58,757 nt of DNA, from NCBI GenBank assembly GCA_025980765.1, contig JAICXB010000026.1, positions 1-58,757 on the forward strand. Direction: 5' to 3'. The position numbers and the translations under genes are program-made. A model generated the notes under the pieces. The model made no database searches. It was not told where the DNA came from and was given only the letters and a program-made list of their open reading frames with translations. Positions within the stretch are counted from its first letter, which is position 1. Each line of letters starts with the position of its first letter. Source of the DNA: Terriglobales bacterium. Lineage in GTDB: Bacteria; Acidobacteriota; Terriglobia; Terriglobales; Acidobacteriaceae. Shown in pieces: positions 22,574-52,746 of the stretch.

Positions 22574-23905
22574 CTATTCGTAATGCAACGCCTCCACCGG
22601 GTCCAACTGCGCCGCTCGGGTCGCGGGAACGGTGCCGAAGACGATGCCTACCGCCGAAGCGACGGCGATGGCGATGATCGCTGAAAGTCCTGAAATGGGA
22701 ATACGGTACGCGGTCAGAAAACGGGCAGAGAAGGGAACTGCCAGACCAATCAATGTCCCCAGCACTCCTCCGCTGAGAGAAATAAACACCGCTTCGGTGA
22801 GGAACTGCAGCCGGATTTCCTGGCGAGTCGCGCCCACAGCCTTGCGAATCCCGATCTCGCGAATGCGGGAACGGACATTGGCCAGCATGATGTTCATAAT
22901 TCCCACGCCGCTCACCACCAGGGTCACCGTGGCAATCAGCAGCAGGACCACAGTAAGCGCGTTGGCGGTCTGCGCGGCCACCGCCAGCAATTGCGTCAGA
23001 TTCTCCACGTGATATACCGATTGCGGCCGATGACGTGACTGCAGGAATTGCCGGATTTCGTTCGTCGCGGCGGGCACTTCGGCGGCGTCGCCCACGGAGA
23101 AGAAAATCTGCTTAACCGCGTCGGTGCCGGTAAAGTATTTGGCGACCGTATAGGGAATCAGGATGGTGTCGTCGGCAATTTCAGACTGACCAAAGGTCTC
23201 TACCCGCTCGCGGAATGTTCCGATTACTGTGAACGGCAGATTGCTGATCTTAATGGTCTGGCCGATGGCCGCATCTTCGTTCCCGTATAGCCGTTTTGCC
23301 AATGGCTGGGTGATCAGCGCAACTTTGGTTCGAGTCATCGATTCGTCCTGATCGAAGAAACGTCCGGAGAGGATCAGCAAGTTGCGAATCGTTTTGTAAT
23401 CGGAAGAAACTCCCAACACCAGCAGATCGCGTTGTTTGCCTTCTCCCACCGAGATGCGATCGTGGAGTTCAACCATCGGCGATGCTGCCACCACGTCCGG
23501 CACCTGCTCGCGAACCGCGCGCACGTCGTTTTCGGTCAGCTCGTCGCGCTGCACCGTGCTGAAGGAAGAATTACTCGCTCCTTCGTAGTACGCGATGATC
23601 ATGTTGGCGCCGATCGACTGGATCTGATTCAGGATGTACTGCTTGCCCGTGAGCCCGATCGTGACCACCAGGATCAGCGAGGCGGTGCCAATCACCATAC
23701 CCAAAGCGGTAAGGACAAAACGAACTTTGCTGGTGCGAAATGAGTCCACCGCCAGCTTGGCGATCTCGCTGAAGAGCATGGTCTTGGTCGCGCTCTCCAG
23801 CGTCGCTTCAAAGGAGCGAATGCGATCCATAGGCCGGTGCGAGGCTGAAGCTCCTGCCTGGTGCGCCTGCTCTTGCAGCGCGAGTCTTTGCTCTTCCGGC
23901 GACAT
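22574..23905 (-). CDS. MacB/FtsX-type ABC transporter permease
   Basis: A 443-residue permease. After a short soluble N-terminus comes a first membrane helix (about 65-90, FVLTALGMVIGTASLILVVT), a periplasmic MacB core domain (about 95-300) and three C-terminal helices with the FtsX signature near NIMLANVRSRIREIGIRKAV. It would work with an ATPase in exporting peptides, lipids or drugs, or in mechanotransmission across the envelope. No ATPase gene is adjacent, so it must pair with one elsewhere. The frame runs up to 24,385, but the part before ATG 23,905 (or 23,917) is repeat DNA and not coding. Confidence 0.85.
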   Translation of the reverse strand: MSPEEQRLALQEQAHQAGASASHRPMDRIRSFEATLESATKTMLFSEIAKLAVDSFRTSKVRFVLTALGMVIGTASLILVVTIGLTGKQYILNQIQSIGANMIIAYYEGASNSSFSTVQRDELTENDVRAVREQVPDVVAASPMVELHDRISVGEGKQRDLLVLGVSSDYKTIRNLLILSGRFFDQDESMTRTKVALITQPLAKRLYGNEDAAIGQTIKISNLPFTVIGTFRERVETFGQSEIADDTILIPYTVAKYFTGTDAVKQIFFSVGDAAEVPAATNEIRQFLQSRHRPQSVYHVENLTQLLAVAAQTANALTVVLLLIATVTLVVSGVGIMNIMLANVRSRIREIGIRKAVGATRQEIRLQFLTEAVFISLSGGVLGTLIGLAVPFSARFLTAYRIPISGLSAIIAIAVASAVGIVFGTVPATRAAQLDPVEALHYE

Positions 23906-23936
23906 GTTCACAACCATCCTAAAACCAAACCCAAAT

Positions 23937-24065
23937 GCTTTACCACGGATCTCACGGATGAGCACGGATTGCCACGGATTCGAAAATACATCAGAAAGGT
24001 TTCTTTGAACGGCAGGAGATCTATCCCTGCGATCCGTGAAAATCCGTGAAAATCCGTGGTAAAGC
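23937..24065. repeat. Inverted repeat element with CACGGAT words
   Basis: The ends are perfect 14-base inverted arms (23,937-23,950 and 24,052-24,065, GCTTTACCACGGAT against its complement). Inside are several CACGGATT copies on one side and AATCCGTG copies on the other. It lies just upstream of the permease start. Confidence 0.65.
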
Positions 24066-24182
24066 TTTTGATTTTGCTGTTGCTTTGCCCCATCTCCAGT
24101 GCACAAATCCCGACTTTCCGCGCGCGTCCACAACCTAGACCACTTTTGAACAGGAAAATCACAATTTTCGTTTTCCCGGCTC

Positions 24183-24210
24183 TTGCACCTGTGAGTGGAA
24201 GGAGTAAATT
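24183..24210 (+). promoter_or_regulatory. Candidate promoter of the large structured RNA
   Basis: TTGCAC at 24,183-24,188 and TAAATT at 24,205-24,210 are separated by 16 bases, an acceptable sigma-70 arrangement, and would start transcription close to the first hairpin at 24,217. A perfect GAAAAT/ATTTTC dyad with a CACA centre lies a little upstream (about 24,150-24,170) and could be an operator. This is inferred from hexamers only. Confidence 0.3.
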
Positions 24211-24215
24211 CCATA

Positions 24216-25950
24216 ACACGCGAGCGTGAGATGTCCTGAATCGCTCGAGCCTGAGTTTCAAAACGAGGTCTTCGCGAGGAGATTAAGTTTGAAACAACCG
24301 ATTGGGACCCGCAACTGTGTCGGAGAAGAACAGATCGCAAGGTCGGTTCCGACGCGAGACGCGGTCGAGAGTTCCAATCGAACAAAGGCCGGTTGCAAGC
24401 GGTGAAAACTGTGAGCTAACCGGTTGCCGTAATCGAAGAATGCAGACGGGCGAGCAAACGATGGCAGCTTATGGTTGCCGATCGGGTGCAAGGTTCCGAG
24501 AGGGTAAAAGCAATCGGAACCGGAAGCCAGGCAGGGATGCTGAGCAGACCTTCGGGTTTGCAGCCAGCATTGAGCGTGATACAGCGCAAGCCGGATCAAA
24601 GCTCGAGAAACCCTGCAGTCGGACGTGAATGGCGGCCCTCGCGGCAGTGATTCACGGAGTGAGCAGTTGGCGCAAGCCGGCTGACTTCCCGGCTCAGCAT
24701 GAACAGAGGAAATGCTGTTCGCGCAGGAAAGACGCTGCGGAAACGCAACATCGATCCGGAAGACTCTGCAAACGTGAAGAGAACGGCACTGTGACCGAAC
24801 ACGACTTCATCCAGTGACGAACTGGACGAAGAAACCGTTCGAATCGCAGCCAGCGGACCGGAGCCGGAGGCGCAAGCCGACGGCAGGTTGCAATCATTCT
24901 GACAGAAGCGCCCGCGAAAGCAGGCGATTTCAGGAACGATTGTGACGAATCCAGTGCTCCAGCAATGGAACACGCGAGCAGCAACCGCAAGGATGAGCTG
25001 TTCGGACAGAATGAGAAATCGTTTTGTCGATCACGGTAAGCAAATCGCAATCCAGCGCATGACGCGAGTCAAAGCGGGTTTAGCGGTTGTCAGTCGCATC
25101 GGACTTGTCCCGCATACGCGGGTCGAGAACGGCGATTGAAAGACTGTTCCGCTGGAGCCAATTCCGGGTTCGCCCGGAACGGGAATTCTGAGACGGAACG
25201 TGTCGCAAGTCCTGGCGCGAGGAACCATTCGGCGCGAGTCGGGTGCGGAGATCGCGAAGGCGAAAGTCCGGTAATCCTGAACAGCGCGGCGCGAGTCGCG
25301 ACGGAGAATCGGCCAAGACCAACTGCGATGCGCGGAGAACGCAAGTTCGTCGTGCAATCCAGATGGCCTGAAAGACCGGCGGTCCCCCTGCAGCGAAAGT
25401 TGCAGGACAGACAAGCTGGCCTAGAGATCGCAGAAACACGGATAACGAAAGCTGTTCGGATCGTCTGCGGTCCTATCCCAAACCCGAGAGGGCGCGGGAT
25501 AAGCAAAGAGCGGCGCTAGGCGGAAGGCCTGTCGAATTCAGGCAACAGGCTTCATCCTTCGGGCACTCGCGGGAGCACATCGCAAGATGCGTTCCGGCGT
25601 AAAACTTCCGGTGACGGAAGGGGGCACGATGGGTGACAAATCCAGCCAAGTCGCATTGACGGCTTCCAGCCTTGGCAACAGGACTGGATGTCTGGACGGG
25701 ACATCTCACCAATTCTTCGTGGCCTGCATTCGCAAGAGTGCAGGCCATGATGCTTTATGGCCGCTTACCAGCTTCTGGTTTGAAGGACCGTCGCCCGCCC
25801 CCGGGCGTCTTTTCGTTGGCAGGAACAATGCAGAGAGAATATTGCAGAATGCGCTTGGTTCAGTCTCAGGTTCCAGCCTGTGCGGCTCGGCACCGCGGCT
25901 CTGACGCAGACGTGAAAAGACGCCCGAGAGCGGGCGACGGTCCTTCAATC
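24216..25950 (+). ncRNA. Candidate giant structured non-coding RNA (about 1.7 kb)
   Basis: No frame here reads like a protein, yet the plus strand is packed with hairpins. A nested arm spans 24,299-24,380: 10 bp closing (299-308/371-380), then 4 bp, then 7 bp (317-323/349-355), then GATC-GCAA-GGTC. Others: 24,255-24,295 (8 bp around a GCGA hairpin); 24,492-24,521 (8 bp); 24,537-24,570 (6 bp around a 7-bp UUCG hairpin); 24,796-24,841; 25,146-25,199 (6 bp around a 7-bp UUCG hairpin at 25,162-25,179); 25,387-25,406 (8 bp, GAAA); 25,475-25,500 (GAGA); 25,605-25,620 (6 bp, GUGA); 25,717-25,750 (15 bp, GCAA). Such density of stable tetraloops is what structured RNA shows. Ends are approximate. I see no group II domain V, no rRNA, RNase P or tmRNA signature. 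Confidence 0.75.
25780..25948 (+). repeat. 35-base inverted arms at the 3' end of the RNA
   Basis: The left arm 25,780-25,814 and right arm 25,914-25,948 match as reverse complements at 33 of 35 positions, enclosing 99 bases that themselves hold smaller pairings. As RNA this is the longest helix of the region and could close the molecule or end transcription; as DNA it could be the ends of a small mobile element. Confidence 0.75.
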
Positions 25951-26011
25951 GCCTTCCTGTCAACCCACTGCCTACCTGGCAGCCTCTAACTACAAAACAG
26001 AGGTTCCCACA

Positions 26012-26623
26012 ATGAAAAGCTTAGCAATCGTATTTCTATCCTTGTCGATGTGCTGTCTGGCGCAAAATTCTGACCAGAGTTCGGCATCAACGAAGGGCAA
26101 GAAGGCGGGCGGCAGCTCTGACGCGCAGTTTGCGATGAAGGCTGCGCAAGGCAACATGGCGGAAGTTGCTCTGGGTAAACTCGCGACGCAAAACGGGCAG
26201 AGCGATGATGTGAAAAAGTTCGGCCAACGCATGATTGACGATCACGGCAAGGCCGAGCAGGACCTTGAGGGAATCGCTTCCAAAGACAATCTCACCCTGC
26301 CCAAGAAGGTGAATGCGCAGCAGAAGGCGGAAGAGCAGCGGCTCTCAAAGCTCAACGGAGCTGCATTTGATCGCGCATACATGCGTCTGATGGTGCAGGA
26401 CCACACCAAAGATGTTGCCGAATTCCGCAAGGAAAGCAACAGCTCTGCAGCCAATTCCGATCTGCGCGATTTCGCCAAGCGAACCTATCCCACATTGCAA
26501 GACCATCTGACGATGGCCAAAAGCATTAAGAACGCGATGGGCAGCAAAGCGAAAGCAACCAAGAGTTCGAAAAAAAACGGCACCGCGGCAACGACGGCAA
26601 GCAGCGGAATGTTGCTGATCTGA
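26012..26623 (+). CDS. Exported DUF4142 (ferritin-like helical) protein
   Basis: A 203-residue protein with a short signal peptide (about 1-18, LSLSMCCLAQ). The body matches the DUF4142 pattern: DAQFAMKAAQGNMAEVALGK, then GQRMIDDHGKAEQDL, and a later HLTMAKSI segment, forming a four-helix bundle predicted to be ferritin-like. The family is exported and its role is unknown; stress and surface functions have been suggested. The C-terminus is Lys/Ser/Thr rich. ATG at 26,012 has an AGAGG ribosome binding site. It follows the large RNA region by about 60 bases and could be on the same transcript. Confidence 0.88.
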   Translation: MKSLAIVFLSLSMCCLAQNSDQSSASTKGKKAGGSSDAQFAMKAAQGNMAEVALGKLATQNGQSDDVKKFGQRMIDDHGKAEQDLEGIASKDNLTLPKKVNAQQKAEEQRLSKLNGAAFDRAYMRLMVQDHTKDVAEFRKESNSSAANSDLRDFAKRTYPTLQDHLTMAKSIKNAMGSKAKATKSSKKNGTAATTASSGMLLI

Positions 26624-46679: not shown

Positions 46680-48200
46680 ATGCCAATCTTTGCGGCAGTC
46701 GATATCGGCGCAAATTCCGTACGACTTAAGATTGCGGAGCTTACTCGCCGCAAATTGAAGGTCGTGCACGAAGACCGCGAAGTCACGCGCTTGGGCGAAT
46801 CGGTTTTCCGCAGCAACTCGCTCGCTCCGGACACCATGGCCCATACCGTCAAGGTCCTCACTCGTTTCTATCGCGCTTCGCAAAAGTTTGGAGCGGAGCA
46901 GGTGCGCGTGGTTAGCACCAGCCCATTGCGGGATTCGAAAAATGCCCGCGCGTTCGTCGAGTGGGTAAAGTCCGCTGTCGGCTGGAAGGTAGAAGTGATT
47001 TCCGGACTGGAAGAGGGACGGCTGATCCATCTGGGAGTGCTCTCGAACCTGCGCATTGAAAACAAAGACGTGCTGATGTTCGATCTGGGCGGTGGCAGTT
47101 GCGAAGTCACCGTCTCGGAACATGGACACATCCGCGAGATGTTCAGCCTGCCGCTGGGCGCGGTGCGCCTGACGCAGGAGTTTCTGCTGCACGATCCGCC
47201 ACGGCGGCGAGAAGTCGATCGCATGCGCGAGTTCATTGCGGAACAGGTGAACCGGATTGCGCCGGCGGTGCGCCGTCATCGCCTGGATCTGACGATTGCC
47301 ACTTCTGGAACGGCAGCGGCGCTGGCGGGAGCGGCGCGAGCGATGGAAGGCCGCTCCAAGTACGCCCACACCATCTCCCGTTCAGCCACGACACGCCTGG
47401 CGCGCGAACTGGCGTCGCGCAGCTCTAGTGAACGCAGCCAGTTTCCCGGAGTGGGACCGCGGCGCGCGGAAATCATCGTGGCGGGAGCCTTCGTCTTTTC
47501 CGAAATGATGGCGCACTACGGACTGCCGTCGTTCCAATACTCTCCGCTGGGTCTGCGCGACGGACTGCTCGCGCAGATGGCCGCAGACGCAGACATCGGC
47601 ACCCGCCAGCACCGGCAACTCGAAGCCGAGCGAGAAGACGCGCTTATCTCGCTTGGCAAACGATTCAATGTGGACGCGCGCCACGCGGCCCATGTCCGCG
47701 ATCTCGCATTGCAGCTGTTTGATTCTCTCCGCGACCTTCATGGCCTGCCCGATGCTTACGAAAACTGGATTGCCGCTGCCGCGATGCTGCACGAACTTGG
47801 CAATTACGTGAATCGCATGGGACGCCACCGGCACACCTGGTACCTGATTTCCAGTTCGGAACTTTTCGGATTCACGCAATACGAGCGCTACATCATCGCC
47901 GCGATCGCACGGTATATGGGCAAATCGCGTCCCAGCGAGCGCGATCGCGAGGTCCGCAATCTGCGCCCTTCCGCGCGCGAATTGTTGCACAAAGCCGTGG
48001 TACTGCTGCGCATTGCGCGGGCATTGAACCAGGGACGCCGCGGCATGGTGCAGAAAGTGCGCGCGCGAGAGAAAGAAGCCGAAGTCATTGTGGAACTGCG
48101 CGGAAAGGCGGGAATGGATCTGGAGGTATGGGCGGCGGAGAAAGAACGCGCTTACTTCCGCGACATCTTCGGACGCGACTTGTCAGTCAAAGCCACCTGA
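46680..48200 (+). CDS. Ppx/GppA exopolyphosphatase family protein
   Basis: A 506-residue protein with an actin-like Ppx/GppA domain (about 1-300): AAVDIGANSVRLKIAEL, VSTSPLRDSKNA, MFDLGGGSCEVTV and ATSGTAAALAG. An HD-type domain (about 320-490) follows with the pair in AAAMLHELGNYVNRMGRH. It would remove phosphate from polyphosphate ends, or from pppGpp. The start at 46,680 lies nine bases after the toxin stop. A terminator follows its own stop. Confidence 0.88.
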   Translation: MPIFAAVDIGANSVRLKIAELTRRKLKVVHEDREVTRLGESVFRSNSLAPDTMAHTVKVLTRFYRASQKFGAEQVRVVSTSPLRDSKNARAFVEWVKSAVGWKVEVISGLEEGRLIHLGVLSNLRIENKDVLMFDLGGGSCEVTVSEHGHIREMFSLPLGAVRLTQEFLLHDPPRRREVDRMREFIAEQVNRIAPAVRRHRLDLTIATSGTAAALAGAARAMEGRSKYAHTISRSATTRLARELASRSSSERSQFPGVGPRRAEIIVAGAFVFSEMMAHYGLPSFQYSPLGLRDGLLAQMAADADIGTRQHRQLEAEREDALISLGKRFNVDARHAAHVRDLALQLFDSLRDLHGLPDAYENWIAAAAMLHELGNYVNRMGRHRHTWYLISSSELFGFTQYERYIIAAIARYMGKSRPSERDREVRNLRPSARELLHKAVVLLRIARALNQGRRGMVQKVRAREKEAEVIVELRGKAGMDLEVWAAEKERAYFRDIFGRDLSVKAT

Positions 48201-48215
48201 CGCAGATTGCGAATT

Positions 48216-48245
48216 CCGGCACTATCGCCGGGGGTTTTGCTTTTT
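48216..48245 (+). terminator. Terminator after ppx
   Basis: CCGGC (48,216-48,220) and GCCGG (48,227-48,231) form a stem with a 6-base loop followed by GGG-TTTT-GC-TTTTT. It lies between the convergent ppx and sixA genes, overlapping the last codons of sixA. Confidence 0.55.
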
Positions 48246-48881
48246 GGTTTTCTTGCTCTTCTTCTTGGATTTTTTGGCCTTCTTGTTCTTCTTGGCTTTC
48301 TTGGCCTTTTTTACCTTGATCTGCAACGCATCGAACAAGCCGTTTGACTTGGGCGCGGGCGGGGCCGATTGGAGTGGAGCCTCCGGATTGGCTTCTGCAC
48401 TCGCGCGGGCCAGGCGCGGAGTGAGCATCCATTGCAGCACCATCTTCTTCTGTTCGCTCTCGACCTTCGCCACCGCTCCTTTTTTCATATCGACAAAAGA
48501 TCGGTTACCGTTGGTCGCAATGGTATGCCCGAGAAATTCGCTAAAGTTGGGATTATGGCCAACCACCATCACCGCTTCCGCTTTCGAGTGCTTGCGCAGG
48601 ACCTCGCGGAACTGCTCGTAGCTGGACTCCGGCCGCAACGAATCGTCGAGGTACAGCTTGCCCTCGTAGCCAATCTCATTCGCAACCAGAGCGGCGGTTT
48701 GTGTAGCGCGTTTCAGCGGGCTTGAAATCACCGCGTCCACGCTCACCTGCATCGCGGAAAGGACACGCCCCATCTGCGTGCACTGGCGAACGCCTTCATC
48801 GTCCAGCGGACGCTTTTCGTCTTTCTTGGGATTAAGTTTCTTCTGTCCCGCGTTGGCGTGACGAAGGAAGTAGATGATCAT
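48222..48881 (-). CDS. sixA: SixA-like phosphohistidine phosphatase with Lys-rich tail
   Basis: A 219-residue histidine phosphatase: the RHG-type motif IYFLRHANAG with His8, the second His in MVVGHNPNFSE, and SSPLKRATQTA. SixA relatives remove phosphate from histidine on phosphotransfer proteins. The core ends near 155. The tail from about 185 onward is nearly all Lys, Ala, Ser and Asn with repeated KKAKK. Its start overlaps the stop of ppk (ATGA), so the two are co-translated. Confidence 0.88.
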   Translation of the reverse strand: MIIYFLRHANAGQKKLNPKKDEKRPLDDEGVRQCTQMGRVLSAMQVSVDAVISSPLKRATQTAALVANEIGYEGKLYLDDSLRPESSYEQFREVLRKHSKAEAVMVVGHNPNFSEFLGHTIATNGNRSFVDMKKGAVAKVESEQKKMVLQWMLTPRLARASAEANPEAPLQSAPPAPKSNGLFDALQIKVKKAKKAKKNKKAKKSKKKSKKTKKQNPRR

Positions 48882-51037
48882 GCGTGTTCAGCTCTTTGTT
48901 GGAAGCGCGTGCGCGGGGTACGCGGCGAGAGCGCCGGAATTGCGGTTAACAGCTCGCTGCCTTCCGCCAATCCTATCAGGAATTCCTGGGCATTGAAGCG
49001 CATTGGAGCCGTACGCCGGCGGCCGCTGACCAGCATGCCCGCGCGAACATAATCGCCGCTGGCCTGCAGCACGCGGGCCTTGGCGTTGTCGGCGAGATAG
49101 GCTTCCAGTATCTCCTGACGAACGCGCTGGCGCAGCAGCGGTTCGCGCAGGGGAAAGACGACTTCCACGCGCTCGTATAAGTTGCGCGGCATCCAATCGG
49201 CGCTGCCTAGATATAGTTCTTCTTCCCCGCCATTGGCGAAAGAATAGACGCGACTGTGCTCGAGCAGCCGTCCGACAACGCTGCGCACGCGAATGCGGTC
49301 GCTTACGCCGCGCACCCCAGGCCGCAACGCGCACATGCCGCGAACGATCAGATCGATGTCCACTCCCGCCTGCGACGCGCGATACAGCGCCTGAATGATG
49401 TTCTTGTCGAGCAGCGCATTCATTTTTGCGATAATGCGCGCCGGACGCTTGGCGCGCGCATGCTCGGTCTCGCGCGTAATCAGCGCCAGCGTTCGCTCGG
49501 CGCAATCTACCGGAGCCACCAGCAGCGGATCGTAATGCGCGTGGTCGGCATAGGCGGTGAGAAAATTAAAAACTTCCTGCACCGCTTCAGTAATCTCTTC
49601 GTTTGCCGTAAACAGGCTGAGATCGGTATAAAAGCGCGCCGTCACCGAGTTGTAGTTGCCTGTTCCAAGATGGGCATAGCGCCGGGTCACCCCGTCCGGA
49701 TCGCGGCGCACCAGCAGAAGAAGTTTGCAGTGCGTTTTCAGGCCTACCAGCCCGTGAAACACCTGCACTCCGGCGTCTTCCAGGCTGCGCGCCCAGCGGA
49801 TGTTCGAAGCTTCGTCCATGCGCGCCTTCAGCTCGACTACGACGGTAACTTCCTTCGTCGCACCCGCTTCGATCAGCGCCTGCACGATTGGCGAATCTTC
49901 GCTGGTGCGATACAGCGTCTGGCGAATGGAGACCACCTGCGGGTCTTTGGCCGCCGACTCAATAAATCCCACCACGGCATTAAAAGAATCGAACGGATGA
50001 TGCAGCAGGATGTCGTGCTTGCGAATCTCCTCAAAGATGTCGCGCGATTTCCCTGTGAGATGCAACTCTCGCGGCACGAAAGCGCGATATTTCAAATCGG
50101 GACGCTGTGTCTGCTCGTAAATGCTGGAGACGCGGGAAAGGTTCACCGGCCCCTGCGTGCGGAAGACCTGCCACTGCTCCAGGCCGAAGTTGCCGCGCAG
50201 GCGCTCAATAATCTCCGGCGCCGCTTCCGACTCGATCTCCAGCCGCACTGCATCGCCCTTGCGCCGGTTGTGAAGTTCGGTGCGCACAGACTCCAGCAGA
50301 TTGCGCGATTCTTCCTCCTGCAGATAGAGGTTGCTGTTGCGGGTAACGCGAAACGCAGCCGCTGAGACAATCTCGTATCCCCGATACATCTTCGCCGCGT
50401 GCGAAGCCACAAGGTCTGCGAGGAAAACATAATCGTGCGTGCCTTCGGCGGAGGGAACGCGCAAAACCCGCGGCAACGCGCGCGGCACCGTGATCACTCC
50501 CATGTAAACCGCCGAAGACCGCCGCCGCCGCCGCAACAAGAACGCCAGACACAGCGCCTTATTCACCACTCGGGGAAAAGGATGCGCAGGATCGATCGTA
50601 ATCGGCGTGAGCAGCGGATCCACGTCGCGCTCGCAGTAGTCTTCCAGGAAATCGCTGGCATTCGTGTCAAGCTCATTGAGTTCCAGCATGCGGATGCCGT
50701 TCTCCGCCAGCGCCGGGCGCAGTCGCTCGTTCCATGACGCATATTGCGACTCCATGAAGTCGTGCGTCTCCTTATTTATAAGATCGAGTTCCTGCTCGGG
50801 AGTGAGCCCGTCGGGGCCCGCCGTTGTGTATCCGTCCTCAATGCGCTGCAGCACCGATGCGACCCGCACCTCGAAAAACTCATCGAGGTTGCTGGCGGTG
50901 ATGCTCAAAAATTTGAGCCGCTCCAGCAAGGGATTGCTCTCGTCCTCGGCCTCCTCCAAAACGCGACGGTTGAAGTTCAGCCACGAGAGTTCACGGTTGA
51001 TAAAGTACGCGGGCTTTTCAATGGACAGACGAGCCAT
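48878..51037 (-). CDS. ppk: Polyphosphate kinase 1
   Basis: A 719-residue polyphosphate kinase, which makes polyphosphate from ATP through a phosphohistidine. The N-terminus YFINRELSWLNFNRRVLEEA is the family hallmark. The autophosphorylated His lies in GLVGLKTHCKLLLLVRRD, followed by RYAHLGTGNYN, and a PLD-like C-terminal half contains IYSFANGGEEELYLGSADW in pieces. The longer frame from 51,148 has extra residues that do not look conserved, so ATG at 51,037 is chosen. Its stop overlaps the sixA start. Confidence 0.93.
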   Translation of the reverse strand: MARLSIEKPAYFINRELSWLNFNRRVLEEAEDESNPLLERLKFLSITASNLDEFFEVRVASVLQRIEDGYTTAGPDGLTPEQELDLINKETHDFMESQYASWNERLRPALAENGIRMLELNELDTNASDFLEDYCERDVDPLLTPITIDPAHPFPRVVNKALCLAFLLRRRRRSSAVYMGVITVPRALPRVLRVPSAEGTHDYVFLADLVASHAAKMYRGYEIVSAAAFRVTRNSNLYLQEEESRNLLESVRTELHNRRKGDAVRLEIESEAAPEIIERLRGNFGLEQWQVFRTQGPVNLSRVSSIYEQTQRPDLKYRAFVPRELHLTGKSRDIFEEIRKHDILLHHPFDSFNAVVGFIESAAKDPQVVSIRQTLYRTSEDSPIVQALIEAGATKEVTVVVELKARMDEASNIRWARSLEDAGVQVFHGLVGLKTHCKLLLLVRRDPDGVTRRYAHLGTGNYNSVTARFYTDLSLFTANEEITEAVQEVFNFLTAYADHAHYDPLLVAPVDCAERTLALITRETEHARAKRPARIIAKMNALLDKNIIQALYRASQAGVDIDLIVRGMCALRPGVRGVSDRIRVRSVVGRLLEHSRVYSFANGGEEELYLGSADWMPRNLYERVEVVFPLREPLLRQRVRQEILEAYLADNAKARVLQASGDYVRAGMLVSGRRRTAPMRFNAQEFLIGLAEGSELLTAIPALSPRTPRTRFQQRAEHA

Positions 51038-51302
51038 AGCTGGATTGCTTGGGGGATTAGGGGTGAATTTTGCTGAGTCCGGCGTAGGAAAGTGTACCTT
51101 ATCCAGCCTGAGGATTTGAACCCATTGTGACCGTTGCTCTCCGGTCACTCTTGCTCCTCTGGGAGCCCGTCATTTAGGATGACATGGGAAGTGGACGACA
51201 AACTCCGTCCGGCATCTCGATGTGCAGCTCCCGCCGCCAGGCAACGCTAATGCCCAGGCGCTCACATCCAAAGCTTGACCCCTGTAATCTCATCGCAAAG
51301 AT

Positions 51303-51378
<76 letters not shown>

Positions 51379-51390
51379 ACTCCTTTGTTT

Positions 51391-52746
51391 TCAGTGCTGG
51401 CTGATCGCGGCGGACCGTTCTGGGTAACATTTGGGTAACAACTCGTTGAATACGACCGCGAGCGGCAGCACGAAATCCTCGACATCCGTCCGGTCGTAAA
51501 CATCCATCGCGAGGTTCACCTTTTTGTGGCCCAGAATATCGGACACGACTTTCGGATGAACTCCCGACCGTCGCAGCTTGGTTGAGAGCGTATGCCGAAA
51601 ATCATGCCAGCCTCCAAGCGAGATGCCTAGCTTCTCGGCAGCAGGTCTGACATGGCGCTTCAGAGCGTTGCCCTGATTCATGGGTGTGCCGGTTTTTGAT
51701 CGGAAGACCCACTCACCTTCTCCGAGCTTCTCCATGCGCGCTATCAGAATCGGATCGATTGGCAGCTTGCGCTCTGAGCGTTTGGATTTCACCGCGTCCA
51801 CATCACCCTCGTAAATTCTGCGCGTAACGTGGAGCACATTGCCTCTGAAATCCGTCCATTTGATCGCGAGTGCCTCGCCGATCCGCAATCCAGTTGCTGC
51901 GAGAAACAGAGCCAAGGTCGCATATGGCTCTTTGAGCTTCTCCGCAATCGCGTTCACCTGCTCGGCAGTCAGAACAGTGCGGGTCACTCTTCTTCCGCCC
52001 GTTCGCTTCGGCAGCTTCACACGGCTGCAGGGATTCTTCTCAAGCCAACTGCAATTGGTCGCCCATCCCAGCGTGAGTCCCAAAACGACCCTCATGCTGC
52101 GAAGAGTGCTCTCGCTGTACTTGCGTGCTTTCTCCGCGAGGAAGTTCTGGATATCTTCACGGTTGATCTCGGTGATCTTCCGTTCTCCAAACCTGGGAAC
52201 AACGTAAGCGCGTAATGCATTCTTGTAGTGGTGGAGCGTGGTTGCCTTCATGGTCGAACCCTCGGCCTTTTCCCACCGCTCCGCCAACTCCCGAAAGCTC
52301 ATCTCCATCTTGGGAGGTGCGCTTTTCAGAAGCTCTGATAAACGTTTACGCGCCGCGCTCTTTGACGGAAGTTCTTCCAAAGTGCCGAGGCGAATCTTGC
52401 GTTGCCGCCTCTCAATCTGGCCCTCCGCGTTGCGGACATCTTCCCGAAATATGCCGTACCAGACTTTTGCCTTGCGGCCCTTCTGGTAAACGAAACCTCG
52501 TTGATACCGAAAAAACATATCTGTCCTTTCCGGTTTCAACGGTTTCCCGATTTCGATTTTCGCGCGCAGTTGTTCAGAAAGCAACTCCGCATCGAAGCGG
52601 ACGAATCGGCCTACACGAATCGCAGGCAGTTCCGTAATGTGTCGCCTGATCCACGATTTGGAGACACCAAGAATGTTCGCTGCAAGATGAATATCGAGCA
52701 GTGATTTACTCGACTCCTGTTGTTCTGCCTTGCTAGAAGACCGCAT
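51391..52746 (-). CDS. Tyrosine recombinase with N-terminal excisionase-like HTH
   Basis: A 451-residue integrase. Residues about 18-65 (LLDIHLAANILGVSKSWIRR ... VRFDAELL) look like the helix-turn-helix of excisionase/MerR-type proteins. An arm-binding and a core-binding domain follow (about 90-240). The catalytic part has the first Arg in ATGLRIGEALA, then HDFRH (His381, Arg384), LGHKK (His407) and the nucleophile Tyr417 in MDVYDRTD. It would insert an element into the adjacent tRNA-Lys gene. The fusion may combine integration and direction control in one protein, which is inference. Confidence 0.88.
   Translation of the reverse strand: MRSSSKAEQQESSKSLLDIHLAANILGVSKSWIRRHITELPAIRVGRFVRFDAELLSEQLRAKIEIGKPLKPERTDMFFRYQRGFVYQKGRKAKVWYGIFREDVRNAEGQIERRQRKIRLGTLEELPSKSAARKRLSELLKSAPPKMEMSFRELAERWEKAEGSTMKATTLHHYKNALRAYVVPRFGERKITEINREDIQNFLAEKARKYSESTLRSMRVVLGLTLGWATNCSWLEKNPCSRVKLPKRTGGRRVTRTVLTAEQVNAIAEKLKEPYATLALFLAATGLRIGEALAIKWTDFRGNVLHVTRRIYEGDVDAVKSKRSERKLPIDPILIARMEKLGEGEWVFRSKTGTPMNQGNALKRHVRPAAEKLGISLGGWHDFRHTLSTKLRRSGVHPKVVSDILGHKKVNLAMDVYDRTDVEDFVLPLAVVFNELLPKCYPERSAAISQH

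Follow-up and report, generated by a model that had tools for sequence, protein, structure and literature searches.

A 58,757-nucleotide stretch of Terriglobales bacterium DNA (family Acidobacteriaceae; contig JAICXB010000026.1 of assembly GCA_025980765.1; hereafter the window) carries on its plus strand, at 24,215–25,760, a conserved secondary structure which, from comparison of related sequences, we read with a probability of roughly 0.8 as a stand-alone giant non-coding RNA, likely with its own promoter, that founds a new family spread over three genera. The structured stretch is about 1.55 kb long here and about 1.33–1.55 kb in relatives, and not 1.7 kb as in the original prediction, which had been made from the window sequence alone and had proposed a new class of structured RNA reaching to 25,950. 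That right boundary lies too far downstream: the structured stretch ends just past a terminator-like hairpin, near 25,760, and the last 190 bases or so are mostly a separate repeat. The proposal of a new class is itself supported, both by helices kept through compensatory change and by the lack of an Rfam match, and the BLASTN and covariance searches of acidobacterial genomes that had been suggested as a check returned homologues with covarying helices. As the fold is kept while no protein is, the stretch is likely transcribed as a giant non-coding RNA, and the descriptive term 'large structured non-coding RNA' appears apt, a covarying fold and the lack of a conserved frame both having been found. 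Large, intricately folded bacterial RNAs outside the ribosome are few, and most are without a known function.

A fold kept by compensatory change

The fold was tested in eight genomes, six of the same genus, which gave the consensus, and two of other genera (G028 and G012), which were held out. For the five complete same-genus sequences, RNAalifold returned −793 kcal/mol on the plus strand and −621 kcal/mol on the reverse strand, while 40 column shuffles averaged −481 kcal/mol (standard deviation 11, lowest −510), which places the real alignment at z −28. Compensatory changes were seen at 120 of the 503 pairs of this five-sequence fold (shuffles, mean 49, maximum 60), and pairing violations were rarer on the plus strand than on the reverse strand (7.0% vs 11.9%). 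The six-genome fold comprised 511 predicted pairs, of which 26 were dropped for more than one non-standard cell or for having letters in fewer than three sequences, leaving 485 that were counted; 96.1% of cells were standard pairs, and 108 of the 485 pairs had changed on both sides, compared with 41.1 in shuffled alignments (0 of 500 as high) and with 13–28 when the fold was slid by 1–3 columns. Among the unpaired columns of this fold, no extra helix of at least 4 bp was kept in all rows.

The held-out genomes were aligned by sequence alone and had letters on both sides for 334 (G028) and 341 (G012) of 473 pairs. The predicted pairs formed in 249/334 cases (75%) in G028 and 224/341 (66%) in G012, against 32–43% for slid folds, and double changes numbered 48 in G028 (slid, 16–29) and 55 in G012 (slid, 31–46). 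As judged from these alignments, the stretch keeps one elaborate RNA fold through compensatory change.

Tetraloop hairpins

Hairpins with a GNRA or UNCG loop and an unbroken stem of 4 bp or more were counted over 24,205–25,767, and 20 were found on the plus strand vs 3 on the minus strand. The plus-strand count compares with a mean of 2.1 (maximum 7) in 300 dinucleotide shuffles and of 1.9 (maximum 6) in 270 same-length segments from elsewhere in the window, both strands included, so that such hairpins are about ten times commoner than chance, and the unusual plus-strand density of GNRA and UUCG hairpins on which the original prediction rested is upheld. Raising the minimum stem length to 6 bp left 10 hairpins, vs 0.3 (maximum 3) in shuffles and 0.2 (maximum 1) in other segments. 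The four hairpins originally given as examples are all present in the sequence: 25,717–25,750 (GCAA loop; 15 bp, including two G-U pairs), 25,387–25,406 (GAAA loop, 8 bp), and 24,544–24,561 and 25,162–25,179 (UUCG loops, 7 bp each). That at 24,544–24,561 is, however, private to this genome, lying outside the conserved fold and being absent from relatives. Single-sequence folding gave −701 kcal/mol (z −13.8 from 60 shuffles; minus strand, z −6.5), whereas 35 other window segments averaged −592, with a lowest value of −658. The AT skew inside the stretch climbs to +0.20 to +0.34, with G exceeding C on the plus strand.

A GNRA or UNCG loop was kept in every sequence having the hairpin for 18 of the 31 consensus hairpins, the letters of the kept loops varying (GCAA, GAAA, GUAA, GCGA, GUGA, GGAA, GAGA), and the window's own copy has such loops in 20 of 30 consensus hairpins. 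On this sequence evidence, loop conservation is in independent agreement with the conserved fold. Unpaired positions are 41–48% A. At about 24,909–24,936 lies a 28-nt insertion with its own CGAAAG loop, unique to the window among the aligned genus members, suggesting that arms can grow through small added hairpins.

Coding potential

The original statement that no part of the stretch resembles a protein is essentially right. Open reading frames (ORFs) of up to 138 amino acids lie wholly inside the stretch, and they are not kept by relatives, in which stop codons break the frames; of 35–38 insertions or deletions per comparison (four comparisons), just 0–5 were multiples of three. By this pattern of indels and stops, a conserved protein is excluded as the source of the conservation. 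The homologues thus keep helices and not a reading frame, the opposite of the outcome that had been named as speaking against a structured RNA. To take the stretch for a protein-coding gene, or for DNA hairpins of a mobile element, could appeal to the overlapping ORFs, to pieces of chance ORFs that tblastn still aligns in relatives (best E 6.5e-20) and to a minus-strand frame open over 136 codons in the G004 fragment; set against these are the indels and stops, the strong strand bias in both folding energy and tetraloops and the single full-length place of the stretch in the window's genome, and this explanation is most improbable.

Distribution among genomes and gene context

Homologues were found in 10 genomes from three genera of one acidobacterial family. 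BLASTN against its own genome and relatives, 100 genomes in total, placed the stretch in eight: all six members of the genus and a single genome from each of two further genera. When 398 genomes of the family were searched with a covariance model (R1, built from 25,418–25,554), ten matched, the same eight strongly (E 3.3e-33 or better) and two weakly; across 396 genomes drawn from the whole phylum, the model picked out the window's own copy alone. The two weak matches, in G358 (E 9.3e-5) and G386 (E 5.3e-4), were rejected after a check with a full-length profile, which listed nothing for L043 and gave 2.6 bits for L044, the loci concerned. Searches within the three genera found carriers in 6/6, 3/5 and 1/1 genomes, including G204 and G168, where just contig-end fragments are present, and G004, in which the RNA is split across two contigs. 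In the metagenome assemblies of three genomes the RNA is cut by four contig ends (the end of L030, the start of L029, G204 and G168), perhaps on account of its hairpins or of strain variation.

A 19-base pattern taken from the 5' end and matched exactly occurred at 12 places in one genome per species of 84,980 species, a set in which records close to the window's own may be absent. Five of these places, on contigs named Acidobacteria, Acidobacteriota or Acidobacteriales, fit the family profile; the other seven are chance matches scoring 9.9 bits or less. A pattern allowing three mismatches gave matches in G052 and G225 that were rejected (3.8 and 6.4 bits), and it missed G002, which has one inserted base. 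No match was found by blastn in 50,697 phage records and 72,556 plasmids, nor with two exact patterns in viral contigs.

Flanking genes are partly common within the genus (on both sides among G005, G001 and G004, and on both sides between G003 and G002; on the downstream side between the window and G003), and G028, G012 and G168 have another common set. No gene next to the RNA is common to both groups, which have just one protein cluster in common, that of generic ABC transporters, lying kilobases away. Where Pfam named a neighbour, it was an ordinary gene of the chromosome, for example one for a sensor kinase, a response regulator, DnaB, a redoxin or an S4-domain protein. Polyphosphate kinase was matched in 23/30 genomes and not in G028 or G012, and DnaB, matched in 27/30, was therefore taken as the tree marker, giving 26 rows without the partial G007 row and second copies. 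This tree of one gene, poorly resolved with 7/23 inner branches well supported, requires that the RNA was gained or lost at least twice among the 26 genomes, and thus RNA transfer or loss has occurred.

Architecture of the proposed RNA

An upstream control region is proposed at 24,127–24,213 (plus strand, as for all parts below), consisting of TCCACAA (24,127–24,133) and then a promoter-like site. TCCACAA is identical in all nine loci that hold the 5' end, across both groups and with differing flanking genes, and may presumably be regarded as reminiscent of DnaA boxes. Immediately before it, TTTTCCAC or TTATCCAC is found in seven of the nine loci, the exceptions being the window itself and G168. 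The putative promoter (TTGCAC, 16 nt, TAAATT; 24,183–24,210) shows kept motif spacing, with CTTG(C/A) and GAGTA(A/C/G)ATT equally spaced in 9/9 loci.

The RNA opens with a near-invariant segment (24,218–24,254), part of the core and almost identical in the three genera, its changes being one T inserted in G002 and an A/C change common to the g24/g8 group. Within it lies the 5' strand of P1 (24,224–24,237), a helix predicted to pair with 25,698–25,710: GUGAGAUGUCC, in the first 40 nt or so, can base-pair with the distant GGACAUCUCAC, close to the 3' terminus, and would thereby shut the molecule on itself. Of the 13 pairs of P1, 12 do not vary within the genus, and 12/13 form in G012. The 5' domain (24,255–24,424) comprises a hairpin (24,255–24,295), a long arm (24,299–24,380) and a second hairpin (24,388–24,424), all three with compensatory changes, and 49/58 and 41/59 of its pairs form in the held-out genomes (both strands within 24,214–24,425). 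The variable arms with GNRA-capped hairpins (24,425–25,312) have a fold supported within the genus and are difficult to align with other genera; this middle is the weakest part of the fold model. The conserved 3' core domain (25,313–25,694) is supported by the covariance model and by held-out pairing, 105/130 and 99/130 pairs forming in G028 and G012 (pairs within 25,300–25,760). After P1 follows a terminator-like hairpin of 14–15 bp with a weak T-rich tail (25,717–25,759), which in G028, G012 and G204 has another stem sequence, the same shape and then six T. The upstream region and this hairpin stay with the RNA although neighbours differ between the groups, and the ends given for the RNA are placed by reference to the promoter-like site, P1 and the terminator-like hairpin.

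Comparison with known RNAs

No Rfam 15 family reached its gathering score in the window or in the homologous loci, in line with the original view that none of the known RNAs is recognisable here. Sub-threshold matches alone were obtained when 23,900–26,100 was searched up to E 10 and six homologous loci up to E 5. In 23,900–26,100 these included mir-1255 (18.6 bits, threshold 63), snoZ242 (11.9, threshold 90) and group-II-D1D4-2 (14.9 bits vs 36, E 5.6); among the five in the homologous loci the best was tfoR (25.6 bits vs threshold 70, E 0.023) in L034, at the 3' end of the G012 copy. No sub-threshold match recurs among homologues. GOLLD, ROOL and OLE presumably have covariance models in Rfam, and no match to the GOLLD, ROOL, OLE or HEARO families was found in the window or the homologous loci, nor to families such as Acido-1 or Acido-Lenti-1. 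Group II introns are kilobase-scale RNAs whose arms bear GNRA loops; here the Rfam intron score lies far under threshold, and no intron-encoded protein or exon context was seen. HEARO is defined by a family match together with an HNH endonuclease gene, and no HNH domain was present among the flanking proteins scanned, which represent part of the flanking ORFs only.

A search of openly licensed literature found no giant acidobacterial RNA; earlier motifs from the phylum include Acido-1, Acido-Lenti-1 and Solibacter-1, the first two with Rfam numbers (PMC2864571). The known large RNAs are shorter, as had been stated originally: GOLLD is about 800 nt and OLE 610 nt (PMC5643018), and the solved ROOL example is 659 nt (PMC12286853). 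Like the RNA described here, GOLLD is a large, ornate bacterial RNA of no known function, in whose solved cage GNRA-type loops and A-minor contacts are important (PMC12286853); the present RNA is about twice as long, has no sequence match to it and no phage link, showing neither the phage or prophage carriage of GOLLD nor any phage or viral match, and has chromosomal neighbours. ROOL shares the large complex fold and is not known to have a protein partner (PMC12286853), but it is borne by phages or prophages (PMC12286853), and in the present RNA no conserved kissing loops were found. OLE, which makes a particle, is likewise large, chromosomal and conserved in its complex fold; it differs in being about 600 nt long and mostly found in Bacillota (PMC12054373), and in having its partner gene adjoining it (PMC5643018), whereas no partner gene is linked to this RNA. 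The smtA motif (Soda Lake RNA) resembles it as a large structured RNA of narrow lineage and no known function, yet is much shorter (over 350 nt), belongs to Thioalkalivibrio and lies upstream of smtA (PMC11109978). As far as sequence can tell, no testable defining feature of GOLLD, ROOL, OLE, HEARO or group II introns is present; being likened in style to the giant ornate RNAs and a member of none, the RNA is rated a new class.

Proposed mechanism and alternative readings

GNRA loops and A-rich joints are the usual means of tertiary packing, and their presence favours a compact scaffold or particle. Transcription would run from the TTGCAC-16-TAAATT site to the terminator-like hairpin; the arms may then be compacted through GNRA-loop and A-minor contacts, P1 would join the first 40 nt or so to the 3' 400 nt or so in a near-invariant core carrying the function, and the variable arms could pack around this core to give a particle, RNA-only or with host proteins. 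From the conserved fold, the upstream region of its own and the want of a linked gene, we infer that the RNA may act in trans; that it does so as a structural scaffold, much as in the OLE, ROOL and GOLLD particles, is given slightly less than an even chance. Such a scaffold might perhaps be oligomeric, like OLE, ROOL and GOLLD, which cryo-electron microscopy shows as homo-oligomers that A-minor contacts and kissing loops hold together (PMC12286853). The fullest version, a self-closing chromosomal machine of ribosomal-RNA size belonging to no known family, with about twenty GNRA-type loops packed into a self-assembling particle, is more tentative still. If true, it would be a bacterial RNA machine of that size outside the ribosome. 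The RNA itself, about twice the length of GOLLD, not found in phages and with a conserved core beside lineage-specific arms, is a new and well-delimited example with which to ask if present-day cells still use giant RNAs as machines or scaffolds.

Several results weigh against this reading of a stand-alone giant RNA. The six-genome fold was derived from the same sequences in which covariation was counted, which is why the held-out test matters, and in held-out G012 the excess of double changes is modest. The reverse strand also has many compensatory pairs (105/461), which is what a mirrored RNA fold should give. Covariation cannot test P1 or the 5' segment, as both hardly vary, and P1 forms just 9/13 pairs in G028. 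A promoter scan does not list the TTGCAC-16-TAAATT site, which is too far from consensus, and terminator-like sites are no more frequent in the window than in shuffles. No loop-loop complement of at least 4 bp is conserved among unpaired columns, so that nothing here points to oligomers, and the RNA carriers do not form one clade in the DnaB gene tree.

Among other explanations, a large ribozyme, with the 5' segment, P1 and the 3' domain as a catalytic centre stabilised by the arms, has the most to commend it although it is unlikely: a conserved core stands next to variable arms, and the invariant 5' CGAGCG and CGCUCG that flank the P1 strand could form a pseudoknot, but no Rfam ribozyme or intron family reached gathering score, the best being the group-II-D1D4-2 match given above, and there is neither a substrate nor a linked gene. 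Descent from phage-borne GOLLD or ROOL, as lost or divergent kin settled in the chromosome, would suit the big size, the ornate fold and the patchy spread with its two or more gains or losses; with no Rfam match, nothing in the viral contigs, phage records and plasmids searched, and chromosomal genes for Pfam-named neighbours, we consider it far-fetched. A long leader or untranslated region controlling the next gene is equally hard to credit, for while a same-strand DUF4142 gene lies downstream of the RNA in the window, in G003 and in G002, the next gene is another one at the remaining loci, and the conserved part closes with a terminator-like hairpin.

Surroundings of the locus

The 5' neighbour of the giant RNA is a divergent MacB-type permease gene (Pfam MacB_PCD, FtsX) whose true start is probably near 23,905, so that a mechanically called ORF reaching 24,385 over-reads into the RNA; the 3' neighbour, on the same strand as the RNA, is the DUF4142 gene at 26,012–26,623. 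Right after the RNA, at 25,780–25,948, comes a palindromic repeat with 35-nt arms (94% complementary, 99 nt apart), an arm of which is matched nine more times in the genome, on seven further contigs; by its sequence and copies this repeat is a dispersed, MITE-like element outside the RNA. A second inverted repeat, with CACGGAT-type units and 30-nt arms (83% complementary, 101 nt apart), lies between the MacB gene and the RNA at 23,921–24,081. Farther away, at 51,303–52,746, a tRNA-Lys stands beside an XerC-like tyrosine recombinase with a weak excisionase-type N-terminal match, and likely marks the edge of an integrated element. At 46,680–51,148 an exopolyphosphatase-like protein (285.6 bits, cutoff 307) is encoded near polyphosphate kinase 1.
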